From Candidatus Polarisedimenticolaceae bacterium (GTDB lineage Bacteria; Acidobacteriota; Polarisedimenticolia; Polarisedimenticolales; DASRJG01): a stretch of DNA of 64,000 nt. Both the position numbers and the translations under genes were made by a program. The stretch is taken from positions 1-64,000 of the forward strand of contig DASVAW010000045.1 of the NCBI GenBank assembly GCA_036376135.1. Reading direction: 5' to 3'. A model generated the notes under the pieces. It was not told the DNA's origin, searched no databases, and saw nothing but the letters and a program-made list of their open reading frames with translations. How positions within the stretch are numbered: position 1 is the first letter of the stretch; each line of letters opens with the position of its first letter. This document shows positions 38,848 to 44,442 of the stretch, one piece after another.

Positions 38848-39861
38848 TCAGCGCATGTCCGCGAGTTTCCGGATCAGGTCGACGACCCGGCAGCTGTATC
38901 CCCACTCGTTGTCGTACCAGGTGATGGTCTTGACCAGGGTGCCGCCGAGGACCCGCGTCGACGGGGCGTCGAAGATCGCCGAGTGCTCGTTCTGGATGAT
39001 GTCCGACGAGACGATCGGCTCCTCGCTGTACTCCAGGACCCCGGCGAGCGGCGGCGTCGAGGCCGCCCGCTTCATCGCGGCGTTGACCTGCTCGACGGTC
39101 GCGGGCTTCTCGAGCTCGGCGACGAGGTCGACGATCGAGCCGTCGGGAACGGGGACGCGCATCGCGATGCCGTCGAGCTTCCCCTTCAGGGCGGGCAGCA
39201 CCTTCCCGACCGCGCGGGCGGCGCCCGTGGTCGTCGGGATGATGTTCTCGTTCGCCGCACGCGAACGCCGCAGGTCCTTGTGGGGGACGTCGGCGAGGCG
39301 CTGGTCGTTGGTGTACGCGTGCACCGTCGTGATGTATCCCTTCACGATCCCGAAGTTCTCGTGCAGGACCTTCGCGACCGGCGCGAGGCAGTTCGTCGTG
39401 CACGAGGCGTTCGAGATGATCCGGTGCTCGGGGCGCAGGCTGTCGTCGTTGACCCCGAAGACGATCGTCGCGTCGACCTCGTCCTTGGCGGGGACCGTCA
39501 GGATCACCCGCCCCGCCCCCGCCTGGAGGTGGAGCGCGCACTCCTCCTTCGACCGGAACTTCCCCGTCGCCTCGACGACGATGTCGATCCCCATCTCCCC
39601 CCACGGGAGCTTCGCGGGGTCCTTCTGCTGAATCATCGTGACCGTCTGACGGCCCGCGTGCATCTTCCCGTCCGCGATCGTCACCGTCCCGGGGAACTTC
39701 CCGAAGACGGTGTCGAACCGCGTGAGGTAGGCGAGCTGCTCGGGCGGCGTGATGTCGTTGATCGCGACGACCTGGACGTCGTCGCGGGAGGAGAGCAGCC
39801 GGAAGACCGAGCGTCCGATCCGGCCGAACCCGTTGATCGCGACCTTGGGCACCTTGGCCAT
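38848..39861 (-). CDS. gap: glyceraldehyde-3-phosphate dehydrogenase (copy 2)
   Basis: Oxidises glyceraldehyde 3-phosphate with NAD(P) and phosphate to 1,3-bisphosphoglycerate. 337 residues: VAINGFGRIGRSVFRLL (dinucleotide loop), SNASCTTNCLAPVAKVL with catalytic Cys154, TTVHAYTNDQRLAD with His181, and the C-terminal YDNEWGYSCRVVDLIRKLA. Classical sequence throughout, in contrast to copy 1 upstream. ATG at 39861, five bases after the copy 1 stop. Both share a promoter at 40935-40964. Confidence 0.94.
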   Translation of the reverse strand: MAKVPKVAINGFGRIGRSVFRLLSSRDDVQVVAINDITPPEQLAYLTRFDTVFGKFPGTVTIADGKMHAGRQTVTMIQQKDPAKLPWGEMGIDIVVEATGKFRSKEECALHLQAGAGRVILTVPAKDEVDATIVFGVNDDSLRPEHRIISNASCTTNCLAPVAKVLHENFGIVKGYITTVHAYTNDQRLADVPHKDLRRSRAANENIIPTTTGAARAVGKVLPALKGKLDGIAMRVPVPDGSIVDLVAELEKPATVEQVNAAMKRAASTPPLAGVLEYSEEPIVSSDIIQNEHSAIFDAPSTRVLGGTLVKTITWYDNEWGYSCRVVDLIRKLADMR

Positions 39862-39866
39862 CGCCC

Positions 39867-40892
39867 TCACCTCCCCGCCGGAAGCGCGGTCTCGAACGCG
39901 GACAGCTTGAGGACCAGCTCGACCACGCGCGAGGCGTACCCCCATCCGTTGTCGTACCAGGTGATCGTCTTCAGGAGGTTTCCGCCGAGGACGGCGGTCG
40001 AAAGGCCGTCGAAGACGGCCGAGTGCGTGTTCCCGATCACGTCCGACGAGACGACCGGCTGGTCGGTGTACTCGATGACGCTCCGGTACCGGGTCGCCGC
40101 GGCCGACTTCACGACCTCGTTGACCTCCTCCACGGCGACGGGCCGCTTCATCAGCGTGACGAGGTCCACCGTCGACCCGTCGGGGACGGGCACGTTCAGC
40201 GCCATGCCGTCGAGGCGCCCCTTCAGCTCGGGGAGGATCCGCTCGACGACCTGCGGCGAGAACGTGGTCGTGGGGATGATGTTCTCCGCCGCCGCCCGCG
40301 AGCGGCGCATCTCGGTGTGCGGGACGTCGGCGAGGCGCTGGTCGTTCGTGTAGGCGTGGACCGTCGTCATGAAGCCCTTCTCGATGCCGAAGGCGTCGTT
40401 GAGGACCTTGCAGATCGGCGCCAGCGCGTTGGCGGTGCAGGACGCGTTGCTCACGATGCGCGAGTCCGGGGTGAGGATGTGGTCGTTGACTCCCATCACG
40501 ACCAGCGCGTCGATCTCGTCGCGGGGCGGGACGGTGAGGATCACCCGCTTCGCCCCCTTGTCGAGGTGCCGCTGGAGGGTCTCCCGCGTCCGGTACTGGC
40601 CGGTGGCCTCGACCACGATGTCGCAGCCGAGCTCCCCCCATTCCACGTCGCCCGGGGCCTTCTTCTGGAGGATCCGGATCTGGCGGCCCTTGCAGTACAT
40701 GCTGTCGCCGGTGACCCAGACCGGCTCGCGGAAACGTCCGTGGACCGTGTCGAACTTGAGGAGGTACTCGAGCGCCTTGGGATCCGCGATGTCGACGATC
40801 GCGGCGATCTCCACGTCCGACCGGTCGTAGAGGATGCGGAAGACGTTGCGGCCGATGCGGCCGAAGCCCATCAGTCCGATGCGAATCGCCAT
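39867..40892 (-). CDS. gap: glyceraldehyde-3-phosphate dehydrogenase (copy 1)
   Basis: 341 residues, about half identical by eye to copy 2. RIGLMGFGRIGRNVFRILYD at the start, Cys152 in SNASCTANALAPICKVL, His179 in TTVHAYTNDQRLAD, NGWGYASRVVELVLKLS near the end. The active-site motif is SCTAN instead of SCTTN, which is rare; the substituted Thr normally contacts the phosphate of the substrate. Asp34 in the AAIVDIADPKALEYL region suggests NAD preference. Likely an isoenzyme for a different flux direction or cofactor. First gene after the operator/promoter at 40920-40964. Confidence 0.9.
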   Translation of the reverse strand: MAIRIGLMGFGRIGRNVFRILYDRSDVEIAAIVDIADPKALEYLLKFDTVHGRFREPVWVTGDSMYCKGRQIRILQKKAPGDVEWGELGCDIVVEATGQYRTRETLQRHLDKGAKRVILTVPPRDEIDALVVMGVNDHILTPDSRIVSNASCTANALAPICKVLNDAFGIEKGFMTTVHAYTNDQRLADVPHTEMRRSRAAAENIIPTTTFSPQVVERILPELKGRLDGMALNVPVPDGSTVDLVTLMKRPVAVEEVNEVVKSAAATRYRSVIEYTDQPVVSSDVIGNTHSAVFDGLSTAVLGGNLLKTITWYDNGWGYASRVVELVLKLSAFETALPAGR

Positions 40893-40919
40893 GGTTTCGC
40901 TCTCCGGAAGAAGGAGTCC

Positions 40920-40964
40920 GCTTCGAGTCGAAGCAGTCTAGGAGCACGGGCGGAGCGGCTGCAA
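40920..40964 (-). promoter_or_regulatory. gap operon promoter with a perfect palindromic operator
   Basis: On the minus strand, -35 TTGCAG (40964-40959) is 18 bp from -10 TAGACT (40940-40935). Just after it, bases 40934-40920 form the perfect 7-1-7 palindrome GCTTCGA-C-TCGAAGC, lying across the predicted transcription start near 40929. A dyad at this place is typical of a repressor operator. The gap ATG follows at 40892 with GGAGAG upstream. Bases 40965-40990 up to the insertion sequence show nothing else. Confidence 0.55.
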
Positions 40965-40990
40965 CCGGCCGGCGTCAAGGCGTCCCTATA

Positions 40991-41013
40991 CATGGTGGTG
41001 CGGACCGTGTTGA
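40991..41013 (+). repeat. left terminal inverted repeat of the IS
   Basis: 23 bp; its inner part reads CGTGTTGA at 41006-41013, matched in inverted orientation by TCAACACG at 42348-42355. The three mismatches to the right repeat are at 40993, 41003 and 41005. The repeat ends 66 bp before the transposase stop codon. Confidence 0.85.
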
Positions 41014-41078
41014 ACCAGGGGTGACGCCGCCACATGGGGCCGTGCGCCAGAACGCTTGCGGCGTCGGTCTGGGCCCGG

Positions 41079-42236
41079 CTAATAGGCCAGAGCGAGCTCA
41101 TGAGGAGAGTTGGGGATTCCGGGCGTGATCCAGGTGCGACGGTAGACCTCCAGCCAGCTCGCCGGGACCCGGACGCGGGCCGGGAACAATCGCCGCGCCA
41201 GTACCCGCGCCCAATTCCACGGCTCACCCGTCAGACCCAGTCGCATCGCCGGCGTCGTGCGGTCGGGCTTGCGCTCGGAGACCCCCTTCACGAAGTTCCG
41301 CCACGCGATTGCGAGGTAAAGACGCTCGAGGATCGCGTTGGTCCGCCGCCCGAACGCGATCGTCTCCCGCCTATGGTGGCTCTCCGAGTGCCGCAGCAGA
41401 CCGTGCAGCGCATCGACCGGGAACATCGCGCGGTCGCGAACGACGGCTTCGGCGCTTCGCGGCGACCTTTTCGGACCGCGCTTCGGATTCGCGTAAGCGG
41501 CGTGCCGGATCCTGCTGCGGAAGGCGGGTCGTGAGAAGACCTGCCGGTAGCTCGGGTGCCCGTCGGTGGTGAGCCCGATCGCGCGTTCTTCTGGGAAGAA
41601 ATGCAGCAGCGCTTCGATCACCCGAGTCATCGAGCCTTCATAGCCCCCGCGGGATGGCTGCGGGGGCCGGTTGCGTCGCTTCGCCTCCTGGAACGTGGAC
41701 CGCTTGCCGGCACGGGCGTGGGGGGCGGGGTCGAGGGCGTACACGAACGGCGACGTCTTCCCGACGACGGTGGCGACGCCGACCGGGTAGTCCTGCGTGC
41801 CCACGAAGGTCTCGAAGTGATCGGCGACGAGCTCTTCGTCGAGAGAAGCGAGCTCGGCCAGTGCCGAGGCGGTCAGGAGCAGCGCGTGTCGACCGAGCCG
41901 CGCGCTTTGCCGGGTGACGGTCGAAGGCGCGCACCTCAGCGACCGTGCGAGCTGGCGGTGGCAGGAGCCGGCCTGGAGCCCCGCGAAGATGGGGACCAGC
42001 AGCTCGGGACGCTTGAGGAAATAGGTCAGCGCGAACGCCTGCTTGCTGGAGGTCTTGCCGCAGGCCAGGCAGCGATAACGCGGAACCCGACGTCCGTCCC
42101 GTCGGCGGTACGAGCCGTGAGCTCGGAACCGGAACGCCTCCCCGTGCTGAAGGGTGTGCTGCGGGCAGTCCCGCCGGGGGCAGAATCGGGGCACGAAACG
42201 GCGTTGTTTCTCGACCGTTTGAATCGGCCAGCGCAT
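41079..42236 (-). CDS. DDE transposase with N-terminal zinc ribbon, IS1-like
   Basis: 385 residues. Two CxxxxC/CxxC pairs (FCPRRDC, Cys19 and Cys24; RCLACG, Cys56 and Cys59) form a zinc ribbon; a helix-turn-helix follows (GSCHRQLARSLRCAPSTVTR). The catalytic core likely uses Asp139 (VADHFETF), Asp225 (LTTDGHPSY) and a Glu at 285 or 291 (RHSESHHRRE). This is the InsA plus InsB order of IS1 in one reading frame, without the frameshift used by IS1 itself. I start at the ATG at 42236; the frame is open upstream into the right repeat but lacks family similarity. Frame is intact, so the element could still be active. Confidence 0.8.
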   Translation of the reverse strand: MRWPIQTVEKQRRFVPRFCPRRDCPQHTLQHGEAFRFRAHGSYRRRDGRRVPRYRCLACGKTSSKQAFALTYFLKRPELLVPIFAGLQAGSCHRQLARSLRCAPSTVTRQSARLGRHALLLTASALAELASLDEELVADHFETFVGTQDYPVGVATVVGKTSPFVYALDPAPHARAGKRSTFQEAKRRNRPPQPSRGGYEGSMTRVIEALLHFFPEERAIGLTTDGHPSYRQVFSRPAFRSRIRHAAYANPKRGPKRSPRSAEAVVRDRAMFPVDALHGLLRHSESHHRRETIAFGRRTNAILERLYLAIAWRNFVKGVSERKPDRTTPAMRLGLTGEPWNWARVLARRLFPARVRVPASWLEVYRRTWITPGIPNSPHELALAY

Positions 42237-42347
42237 GCCGAGAAGGCGAGCAGGCCCCGTGCCCTGAAGAAGTGACGACGGCCCAACCGCCGCGCCCCGG
42301 GCAATAGTCCGCGGGTGGACGCCACGTCCGCCGGTGGTCGCCACCCG

Positions 42348-42370
42348 TCAACACGATTCGCACCACCGTG
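42348..42370 (-). repeat. right terminal inverted repeat of the IS
   Basis: 23 bp in inverted orientation to 40991-41013, 20 of 23 matching. It lies 111 bp before the transposase start (counting on the minus strand) and 61 bp before the ATG of the ECF sigma factor. The -10-like TATACT (42376-42381) of that gene begins inside the right target duplication. Confidence 0.85.
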
Positions 42371-42431
42371 GTCCGTATACTGGCGGCCCGATTTCGCGGG
42401 AACCCGCCCGCGACGAGGTTCGTTTCCCTTC

Positions 42432-43019
42432 ATGACCGGACGCGACGAGGATGACAAGGCCGCCTCCGACCTCCGGGACGTGGAGGCGGTGCTCGCCGGG
42501 AACGCGGGAGCCTACCGCGGCCTCGTCGAGCGGTATCAGGGGATGGTCGCGGGACTCGCCTGGCGTTACGGCGTGAGGCGGGAGGACATCGAAGACGTGA
42601 CGAGCGACGTGTTCATCAAGGCCTACGAGAACCTGGGATCGTACCGCCCGGACCACCCCTTCGGAACCTGGCTCTACCGTCTGGCGGCGAACCACGTGAT
42701 CGACCAGGCGCGCCGGAGGAAGAAGGAACGGCTGCGGTCCGACATGCCCGAGCAGGTCGCGGACCCCCGGCCCGGCGCGGAGAGCGCCGTCGAGGTCGAC
42801 GAGCGGGACTCGCTCGTCCGCGGCGCCCTCGGCGCGGTCGACGGCCGTTACCGCGACGCCCTCTTCCTGGTCTACGTCGAGGGCCGGCGTGTCGACGAGG
42901 CGGCGGCGATCCTCGGCATCCCGGAGGGGACGATGAAGACGCGGCTCATGCGCGGCCGCGAGGCGTTGCGGCGGGTCCTCCAGCGCCGCCATCCCGAGCA
43001 CTTCGGAGCGCCGTCGTGA
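42432..43019 (+). CDS. ECF (sigma-70 family, extracytoplasmic function) sigma factor
   Basis: 195 residues. Region 2 is YQGMVAGLAWRYGVRREDIE to DVTSDVFIKAYENLGSYRPD, followed by PFGTWLYRLAANHVIDQARR; region 4 is LFLVYVEGRRVDEAAAILG with IPEGTMKTRLMRGREALRR. A charged linker separates them, and no region 1.1 or 3 is present. Likely controls an envelope-stress response together with the next gene, a putative anti-sigma protein coupled by a GTGA overlap. The IS insertion 61 bp upstream sits between the usual -35 position and the -10-like TATACT, so its promoter may have been rewired. Confidence 0.92.
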   Translation: MTGRDEDDKAASDLRDVEAVLAGNAGAYRGLVERYQGMVAGLAWRYGVRREDIEDVTSDVFIKAYENLGSYRPDHPFGTWLYRLAANHVIDQARRRKKERLRSDMPEQVADPRPGAESAVEVDERDSLVRGALGAVDGRYRDALFLVYVEGRRVDEAAAILGIPEGTMKTRLMRGREALRRVLQRRHPEHFGAPS

Positions 43020-43459
43020 GCGGGCCCGATCCGATCCTCGACGCCCTCGCCCGCCTCCGGCGCGCCGAGGCCCCCCGCGTGGACGTCGCCTCGCGCGTGA
43101 TGGCGCGCGTCGCCGTGCTTTCCGTCCCCGCGCGCCCCGAGCGACGGTACGGCCTGGGCGTCGCCGCGTCGATCGCGTTCGCCCTCACCGCGAGCGCCGC
43201 GGGGGCGCAGCTCGCGGGTCCGCTCCGATCCGCGGCCGCGGACGTCGTCCCCGCGATCCTCGCGGTCGTCCGCGGATTCGCGATCGCCGCCGCGGCCGCG
43301 ACCGAGGCTCTCGTCCGCATCGCCGGGGGGCTCGACGGCGTGCGCGCGCTCGGCCAGGCCACCGGTGTCGCGGCGCTCGCCGCCGCGGGCAGCCTCGCCT
43401 TCCTGCTGCTGGCTCGCGAGATCCGCCGCGCGCCGGCCCTCGCCCGGAGCTCCCGATGA
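43016..43459 (+). CDS. probable membrane anti-sigma factor
   Basis: 147 residues. A cytoplasmic N-terminus (DPILDALARLRRAEAPRVDV) leads to two or three hydrophobic helices (GLGVAASIAFALTASAAGAQL, ATGVAALAAAGSLAFLLL) with an Ala-rich segment between. There is no clear zinc anti-sigma (ZAS) motif HxxxCxxC. Its position directly after the sigma factor with a GTGA overlap is the main reason for the call, and the sequence alone would not support it. Stop overlaps the next ATG. Confidence 0.5.
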   Translation: MSGPDPILDALARLRRAEAPRVDVASRVMARVAVLSVPARPERRYGLGVAASIAFALTASAAGAQLAGPLRSAAADVVPAILAVVRGFAIAAAAATEALVRIAGGLDGVRALGQATGVAALAAAGSLAFLLLAREIRRAPALARSSR

Positions 43460-44442
43460 TCACCCTCGCCGCCCTGGTCTTCCTGCTCGGCGCGTCCCCG
43501 ACGCCCGCGGCGCCGCCGGACCCGCCGGCTCCGCCCGCCGTCCAGGCCCCGCCCGCCTTCGACGACCCGTCGTTCCCGTTCGGCGGGGACGAGGGCGAGA
43601 CGTCGTTGCGGCGGGTGCGGGAGCAGGTCGCGGTCGGCAGCGACGTTCACGTGGAGCGCGACCAGCTGGTCGAGGGCGACGTCGTCTGCGTCGGCGGCGC
43701 GGTACGCATCGACGGCGTCGTCCGCGGGGACGTGGTGGTCGTAGGCGGCCGGCTCGACGTCTCCGGCACGGTCCACCAGCAGGTGGTCGCGGTCGGCAGC
43801 CGCGTGCGGATCGACGACGCCGCCCGCGTCCGGGGCCAGCTCGTGACCGTGCTCGGCAAGCTGGATCGCGACAAGGCGAGGGTCGACGGCGAGGTGACGA
43901 ATCTCTCCTTCGGCGGCCTGTTCGTCCCGACCGGGGTGGGGATCGCGGGGCTGGCCTTCGCGGCGATCGCCTGGGATGCCCTGGTGCTCCTCGCGACGGC
44001 GTTCGCCGTGCTCGCGCTCGCCGCGCTGGCCCCGGAGCGGATCGAGCGGATCGCCGCGGCGGGGCCACGGTCGCCGTTCGCGGCCGTCGGGGGCGGCATT
44101 CTCGGCTACGTGCTCGTCGCGATCGTGCTCGGCGTGCTCGTGATCACGATCCTGGGGATCCCCGTCGCGATCCTGCTCTGGTGCGCCTTCACGCTCCTGA
44201 AGTGGATGGGGCTCGCCGGCCTGTCGCTCGCGATCGGGCGCCGGCTCGCGCGGGGCTTCGGCAAGAGCCTCCCCCTCGCGGCGGCGGTCCTCCTGGGGTT
44301 CCTTCCCCTCGCGATCCTCAGGCTCGTCCCGTTCGGGGTCGGCTGGGCCCTCTGGTTCCTGGTCGAGATCTTCGCGGTCGGGTGCGTGATCGCGTCCCGC
44401 GCGGGGCGCGCCGCGCCGGAGTCGATCCCGGCTCCGGTGTAA
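43456..44442 (+). CDS. membrane protein with bactofilin/polymer-forming-like domain
   Basis: 328 residues: signal peptide, Pro-rich segment (PPDPPAPPAVQAPPAF), then a right-handed beta-helix-like stretch of short repeats (HVERDQLVEGDVVCVGGAVR, IDGVVRGDVVVVGGRLDVSG, TVHQQVVAVGSRVRIDD) of the polymer-forming type, and four or five transmembrane helices from about residue 150 (GLAFAAIAWDALVLLATAF, GILGYVLVAIVLGVLVITIL). Such proteins may form or anchor cell-surface or cytoskeletal polymers; unlike bactofilins it is fused to a membrane domain. ATG overlaps the preceding stop (ATGA). Confidence 0.7.
   Translation: MITLAALVFLLGASPTPAAPPDPPAPPAVQAPPAFDDPSFPFGGDEGETSLRRVREQVAVGSDVHVERDQLVEGDVVCVGGAVRIDGVVRGDVVVVGGRLDVSGTVHQQVVAVGSRVRIDDAARVRGQLVTVLGKLDRDKARVDGEVTNLSFGGLFVPTGVGIAGLAFAAIAWDALVLLATAFAVLALAALAPERIERIAAAGPRSPFAAVGGGILGYVLVAIVLGVLVITILGIPVAILLWCAFTLLKWMGLAGLSLAIGRRLARGFGKSLPLAAAVLLGFLPLAILRLVPFGVGWALWFLVEIFAVGCVIASRAGRAAPESIPAPV

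Follow-up and report, generated by a model that had tools for sequence, protein, structure and literature searches.

A gap gene (glyceraldehyde-3-phosphate dehydrogenase) and a gene for an ECF sigma factor are divergent neighbours in the window, which is the stretch of 64,000 nucleotides that we analysed, and an insertion lies between them. What kind of element is it, and did it disturb the promoter of the sigma gene? We propose that it is a complete and probably once-active insertion sequence (IS) of a distinct IS1-related group and that it landed above a −10-like box, with that box and an ECF-type promoter left in place (rough probability 0.85). The features of the locus are:

39867-40892, minus strand: gap gene (PF02800, PF00044), divergent neighbour of the sigma gene
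40982-40990: left target-site duplication, GTCCCTATA, identical to the right copy at 8 of 9 positions
40991-41013: left terminal inverted repeat, of which 20 of 23 positions are complementary to the right end, on the 3′ side of the transposase gene; similar ends occur elsewhere in the genome
41079-42236, minus strand: transposase gene, 385 amino acids from the ATG at 42236, stop codon at 41079-41081, with a zinc ribbon, a helix-turn-helix, and an RNase H-like core
42348-42370: right terminal inverted repeat, complementary to the left end at 20 of 23 positions, on the 5′ side of the transposase gene; similar ends occur elsewhere in the genome
42371-42379: right target-site duplication, GTCCGTATA, 8 of 9 positions identical to the left copy; overlaps TATACT
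42376-42381, plus strand: TATACT, a −10-like box 5′ of the sigma gene, intact after the insertion
42400-42426, plus strand: GAACC-N16-CGTTTC, an ECF-type promoter motif with a probable role in autoregulation, 18 bp below TATACT and not part of the IS
42432-43019, plus strand: ECF sigma factor gene, 195 amino acids (PF04542, 3.6e-17; PF08281, 4.6e-12)

The element is a genuine and complete IS. It occupies exactly positions 40991-42370 (1,380 bp), and our analysis returned the same coordinates as the first-pass annotation, which had described 23-bp inverted repeats that match at 20 positions and a 9-bp target duplication with one mismatch. Letter shuffling of the 700-bp flanks (300 rounds) produced inverted pairs that match at 20/23 or better on a single occasion, and never with a repeat of 8/9 or better. 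A further 300 rounds with looser ends (16/23) gave 6,634 pairs, 3 of which came with such a repeat. As 3 of 23 positions in the ends and 1 of 9 in the repeat are mismatched, the copy in the window may be old.

The same genome (4.38 Mb in 179 contigs) contains other copies. Contig 137 carries another complete one (G000:C137, L002), with 85% amino acid identity to the copy in the window, ends that match at 22/23, and an exact 9/9 duplication, CACGCGCTC. Also, contig 106 stops within an IS copy and contig 65 starts within one, and because both flanks carry GTTTCAGTT (9/9), a single insertion is the most likely origin of the two halves. (The end of L004 on contig 106 and the start of L007 on contig 65 are probably neighbours via a collapsed IS copy.) Single IS ends are present on contigs 14 and 160. 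Contigs 106 and 160 have IS pieces that are identical at 318 of 324 bases and flanks that show no relationship, with 390 of 1,425 positions alike in an ungapped comparison. Finally, contig 95 carries a diverged cousin (51% identity) that has perfect 23/23 ends without a repeat.

Across the phylum, 34 of 396 genomes contain matches to the transposase at E ≤ 0.001 (some of which are fragments), and 29 of these 34 belong to the same class of Acidobacteriota, for which 41 genomes were searched. We scanned 31 members for ends: the 27 of our main alignment (A1), which omits fragments and broken frames (L022, L027, L029, L030, L032, L034, L070, and shorter ones), and 4 of the 5 in a second subgroup (A2), with L080 left out. 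Ends that start with CA and match at 18/23 or better were found in 20 of the 31, for element lengths of 1,329-1,504 bp. The other 11 have no clear ends (L018, L028, L035, L061, L062, and L064-L069), including all four that were scanned from the second subgroup; for L018, the ends match at 17/23 at 1,314 bp, with a repeat of 1/9. For the 19 members that could be scored on both flanks, the target repeat is at least 8/9 in 6, 7/9 in 1, and at most 5/9 in 12, in a scan that kept only CA-starting pairs and picked the best pair by ends plus repeat, which slightly favours repeats. When CA was not required, a scan returned the same CA ends for six distinct elements that are bounded by a repeat of at least 8/9. 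The 12 members with good ends but no target duplication (L006, L015, L016, L020, L021, L025, L031, L056-L058, L060, and L085) could have arisen by intramolecular transposition or by recombination between copies, or could reflect the assembly of metagenome-assembled genomes (MAGs).

In broader searches, there was no protein match at 1e-3 in plasmids (72,556 records) or phages (50,697 records), no relative among the 3 pattern stretches in viral contigs, and no match among PDB sequences at E up to 1. A scan of 84,980 genomes with only six short peptides from the window protein, which is hardly informative on distant relatives or on other phyla, identified 5 loci, all titled as MAGs (4 as Acidobacteria or Polarisedimenticola and 1 only as "bacterium").

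What did the insertion do to the sigma gene? The first-pass annotation had taken TATACT to be the −10-like box of this gene and had noted that the right target copy runs into it. Comparison with orthologs strengthens the case: of the 12 nearest sigma orthologs (window included), 7 have TATACT, TATAGT, or TATAAT at a distance of 54-108 nt ahead of the aligned start. Nearer to the gene and better conserved, GAACC-N16-CGTTTC is probably an ECF-type promoter and putatively autoregulatory, an assignment based on the known ECF pattern. A wider form of the motif, [ACG]AACC-N15/16-CGT[AT][ACT]C, which was written after viewing the 12 nearest orthologs, is found in all 12 of them, 24-42 nt before the aligned start (letter shuffles gave a mean of 0.011 of 12 and at most 1 in 1,000 shuffles). 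Its sole occurrence in the window is at 42400-42426. In a hold-out set of 12 more distant orthologs (37-45% identity), 2 have the motif, versus 0.01 expected from letter shuffles; of the ten without it, 8 show GGAACC by eye, with a different −10. Across the genome, GAACC-N15/16-CGTTTC occurs at 6 sites and the reversed pattern at none, with about 4 expected by chance at even base composition, so these counts carry no weight here.

One possibility is that the insertion switched the sigma operon, either by removing an upstream part of the promoter or by supplying a new one. The duplication does extend into the box, which 7 of 12 orthologs share. This seems unlikely, however, because TATACT is still intact, because the conserved ECF-type promoter is outside the IS, and because we found no sigma-70-type promoter at 40850-42480 (a weak point, as merely 0.1 was expected by chance). 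As the box is intact and the ECF-type promoter lies outside the element, the insertion probably altered only the stretch above the −10-like box, and we infer that it had no large effect on the sigma gene. The locus is an example of an IS landing beside a promoter without the loss of conserved regulatory sites.

In the nearest relative, G119, the same gap/sigma pair is present and no IS lies between the two genes. The DNA between them could not be aligned with the window, and a single comparison with the two joined flanks did not reveal a counterpart to the insertion point. In G119, this spacer contains an additional ORF of 118 amino acids with two cysteine-pair motifs (L071 2986-3342) that was not seen in the window. 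Two gap genes lie in tandem in the window (38848-40892), and two are likewise adjacent in G119 (L071 3348-5371). The two genes 3′ of the sigma gene (147 and 328 amino acids; 43016-44442) matched no Pfam family at E ≤ 0.001.

The transposase frame had been called intact, and it is open on the minus strand from 42344 to 41079, which would give 421 amino acids from a GTG. The ATG at 42236 is the likelier start because alignments with the better homologs begin near residue 36-37 of the 421-residue frame (at residue 23 for the nearest copy). In the protein of 385 residues, the zinc ribbon is formed by C19, C24, C56, and C59. C19, C24, C56, D139, and D225 are invariant in the 27 members of A1, and C59 is present in 26 of them. 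An AlphaFold model built with the 27 sequences (pLDDT 88.8, pTM 0.89) has the order β1(D139)-β2-β3-α-β4(D225)-α-β5-helix 262-284, with D275 in that last helix. By structure comparison, the RNase H-like core matches ISCth4, retroviral integrases, and Tn5 (6xg8_A, Z 12.5, rmsd 8.2, 250 residues aligned; 6xgx_B, Z 12.2, rmsd 3.6, 211 aligned; 7jn3_B, Z 11.2, rmsd 3.0, 154 aligned); the best Foldseek match reached merely E = 5.4e-4 and TM 0.35. The alignment with retroviral integrases starts at 132 versus 57, and judging from the alignment ranges, the predicted position of D139 fits the first Asp of those enzymes, which we take to be D64.

To which family does this protein belong? It is over no curated Pfam or NCBIfam cut-off, and its Pfam matches are weak ones to HTH and similar models. 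The first reading, as an IS1 InsA+InsB without the frameshift, stands in part. The protein is indeed a one-frame zinc-ribbon transposase and a relative of IS1: hhalign of the group with L076, an IS1-like protein found in the same class, returned 92.9% (E = 3.6e-7). (L076 passes PF03400, and it also barely passes the IS6-type DDE model PF13610, at 27.1 versus 27 bits.) The part that does not stand is IS1 itself, as the window protein scores 13.3 bits with the IS1 model NF033558, versus a cut-off of 100, and probably has Asp (Asn in some relatives) at the third catalytic position, and as the ends of the element start with CA.

Might the element instead be a member of the ISL3 family or a divergent true IS1, so that nothing new is needed? 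We consider this doubtful. At E up to 0.1, the IS1 model does match 20 of the 27 members (best 2.7e-7), and the ISL3 model matches nearly as many (19 of 27, best 4.3e-7). However, no protein in the 41 genomes of the class is over the cut-off of the IS1 model, and PF03400 (IS1) is absent from the Pfam matches of the 27 members at E up to 0.1. The matches to the ISL3 model (NF033550, cut-off 180 bits) are far below its cut-off and cover only its N-terminal part, and the four ISL3 matches that are over the cut-off sit elsewhere. Profile comparison gave 0.6% with one true ISL3 and a weak 4.7% with E. coli InsB alone. Also, IS1A starts with GG. From the Pfam and NCBIfam models, the profile comparison, and the ends, we read the element as belonging to a separate IS1-like group and not to IS1 proper. 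That this group amounts to a separate IS family, apart from IS1 and IS1595, found in Acidobacteriota so far and marked by Asp or Asn for the catalytic Glu, CA ends, and 9-bp duplications, is a claim to which we would give even odds.

Because the element evades the curated transposase models that we tried, annotations probably often overlook it or label it hypothetical, although 29 of the 41 class genomes that were searched carry traces of it. Among the literature matches listed, which lie mostly outside the ISfinder literature, we found no description of the group, and this does not prove that none exists. We regard it as moderately interesting: a group for which we found no description, with an altered third catalytic residue, and otherwise ordinary.

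As for that residue, a zinc ribbon plus a DDE core had been noted previously, and that reading holds for the zinc ribbon and for two Asp; the third position is probably Asp275 rather than Glu, from the alignments and the predicted fold. (The codons on the minus strand are 41822-41820 for D139, 41564-41562 for D225, and 41414-41412 for D275.) The hhalign comparison places V274-D275 on I-E of the IS1-like transposase L076, and against the second subgroup (E = 2.2e-48), it places V274-D275 on I-N. Column 275 is Asp in 23 and Asn in 4 of the 27 rows of A1, and it is Asn in all five rows of A2. On a tree, D and N at this position are clustered (2 changes versus a shuffled mean of 9.1), in a reconstruction that included column 275 itself, in which the Asn group is weakly supported (66/7) and the sole Glu row is a very long branch. 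An alternative would be a conventional DDE transposase in which Glu291 is the third residue, the D-E spacing is long, and D275 or Asn is structural. This is improbable: E291 is kept in 26 of 27 members (including 3 of the 4 with Asn at 275), but it lies past helix 262-284 in the sole run of at least 3 residues with pLDDT below 50 (289-295), the second subgroup has Arg at its position in the profile alignment, and hhalign puts the IS1-like Glu on D275. If Asp275 is the third residue, then this natural series from Glu to Asp or Asn, at one catalytic position and in an IS1-like background, would allow the importance of the third residue to be tested directly.

We propose the following path for the insertion. 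The single-frame transposase would bind the 23-bp ends (5′-CA...TG-3′) via its zinc ribbon and helix-turn-helix. The RNase H-like core would then act with Asp139, Asp225, and Asp275 as its putative triad, with Asp275 at the position of the IS1 Glu. Both ends would be joined to the target with a 9-bp stagger, and filling in would yield the 9-bp duplication. In this case the target would have been the spacer between gap and the ECF sigma gene, just 5′ of the −10-like box, so that the box and the ECF-type promoter would be kept.

How does the element compare to known systems? With Tc1/mariner, it shares an Asp as the probable third catalytic residue. Tc1/mariner elements have a DD34D motif, a TA target duplication, and another domain build; no Tc1/mariner family is among the Pfam matches of the 27 members, and the IS630 model was touched by 2 of the 27 (best 0.0035).

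The IS1595/Merlin elements are similar in having one gene, an N-terminal zinc finger, and a DDE-type core. Passages of one source describe 8-bp or 9-bp duplications for Merlin elements and give 8 bp as the usual flanking length for members of IS1595 (PMC8101967). Unlike IS1595, the element has a 9-bp duplication. Also, PF12762 (DDE_Tnp_IS1595) is absent from the matches of the 27 members at E up to 0.1, with none in the element's own genome either, and profile comparison with one true IS1595 gave 1.4%.

With the IS1 family, the element shares the zinc ribbon, helix-turn-helix, and DDE-type core, and the similarity is distant but detectable. IS1 makes 9-bp duplications and has ends of about 23 bp. 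Here, the 9-bp duplication is at least 8/9 in 6 of the 19 scorable members, plus 9/9 for contigs 106 and 65, and there is none in 12 of the 19. The spacing from the second to the third catalytic position is 24 in IS1 and differs here, at a putative 37-49 residues across the group (49 for the copy in the window). In place of the D-D-E of IS1, this group would have Asp or Asn for the Glu, as judged by alignment only, with E291 as the remaining rival; its ends start with CA instead of the GG of IS1A. Finally, the usual form of IS1, according to a passage in one source, is two overlapping ORFs that are joined by a −1 frameshift (PMC3196728), whereas a single frame encodes the transposase here, both in the window and in all 27 members of A1 (an alignment from which relatives with a frame broken by a stop or a frameshift, among them L027 and L029, were left out).
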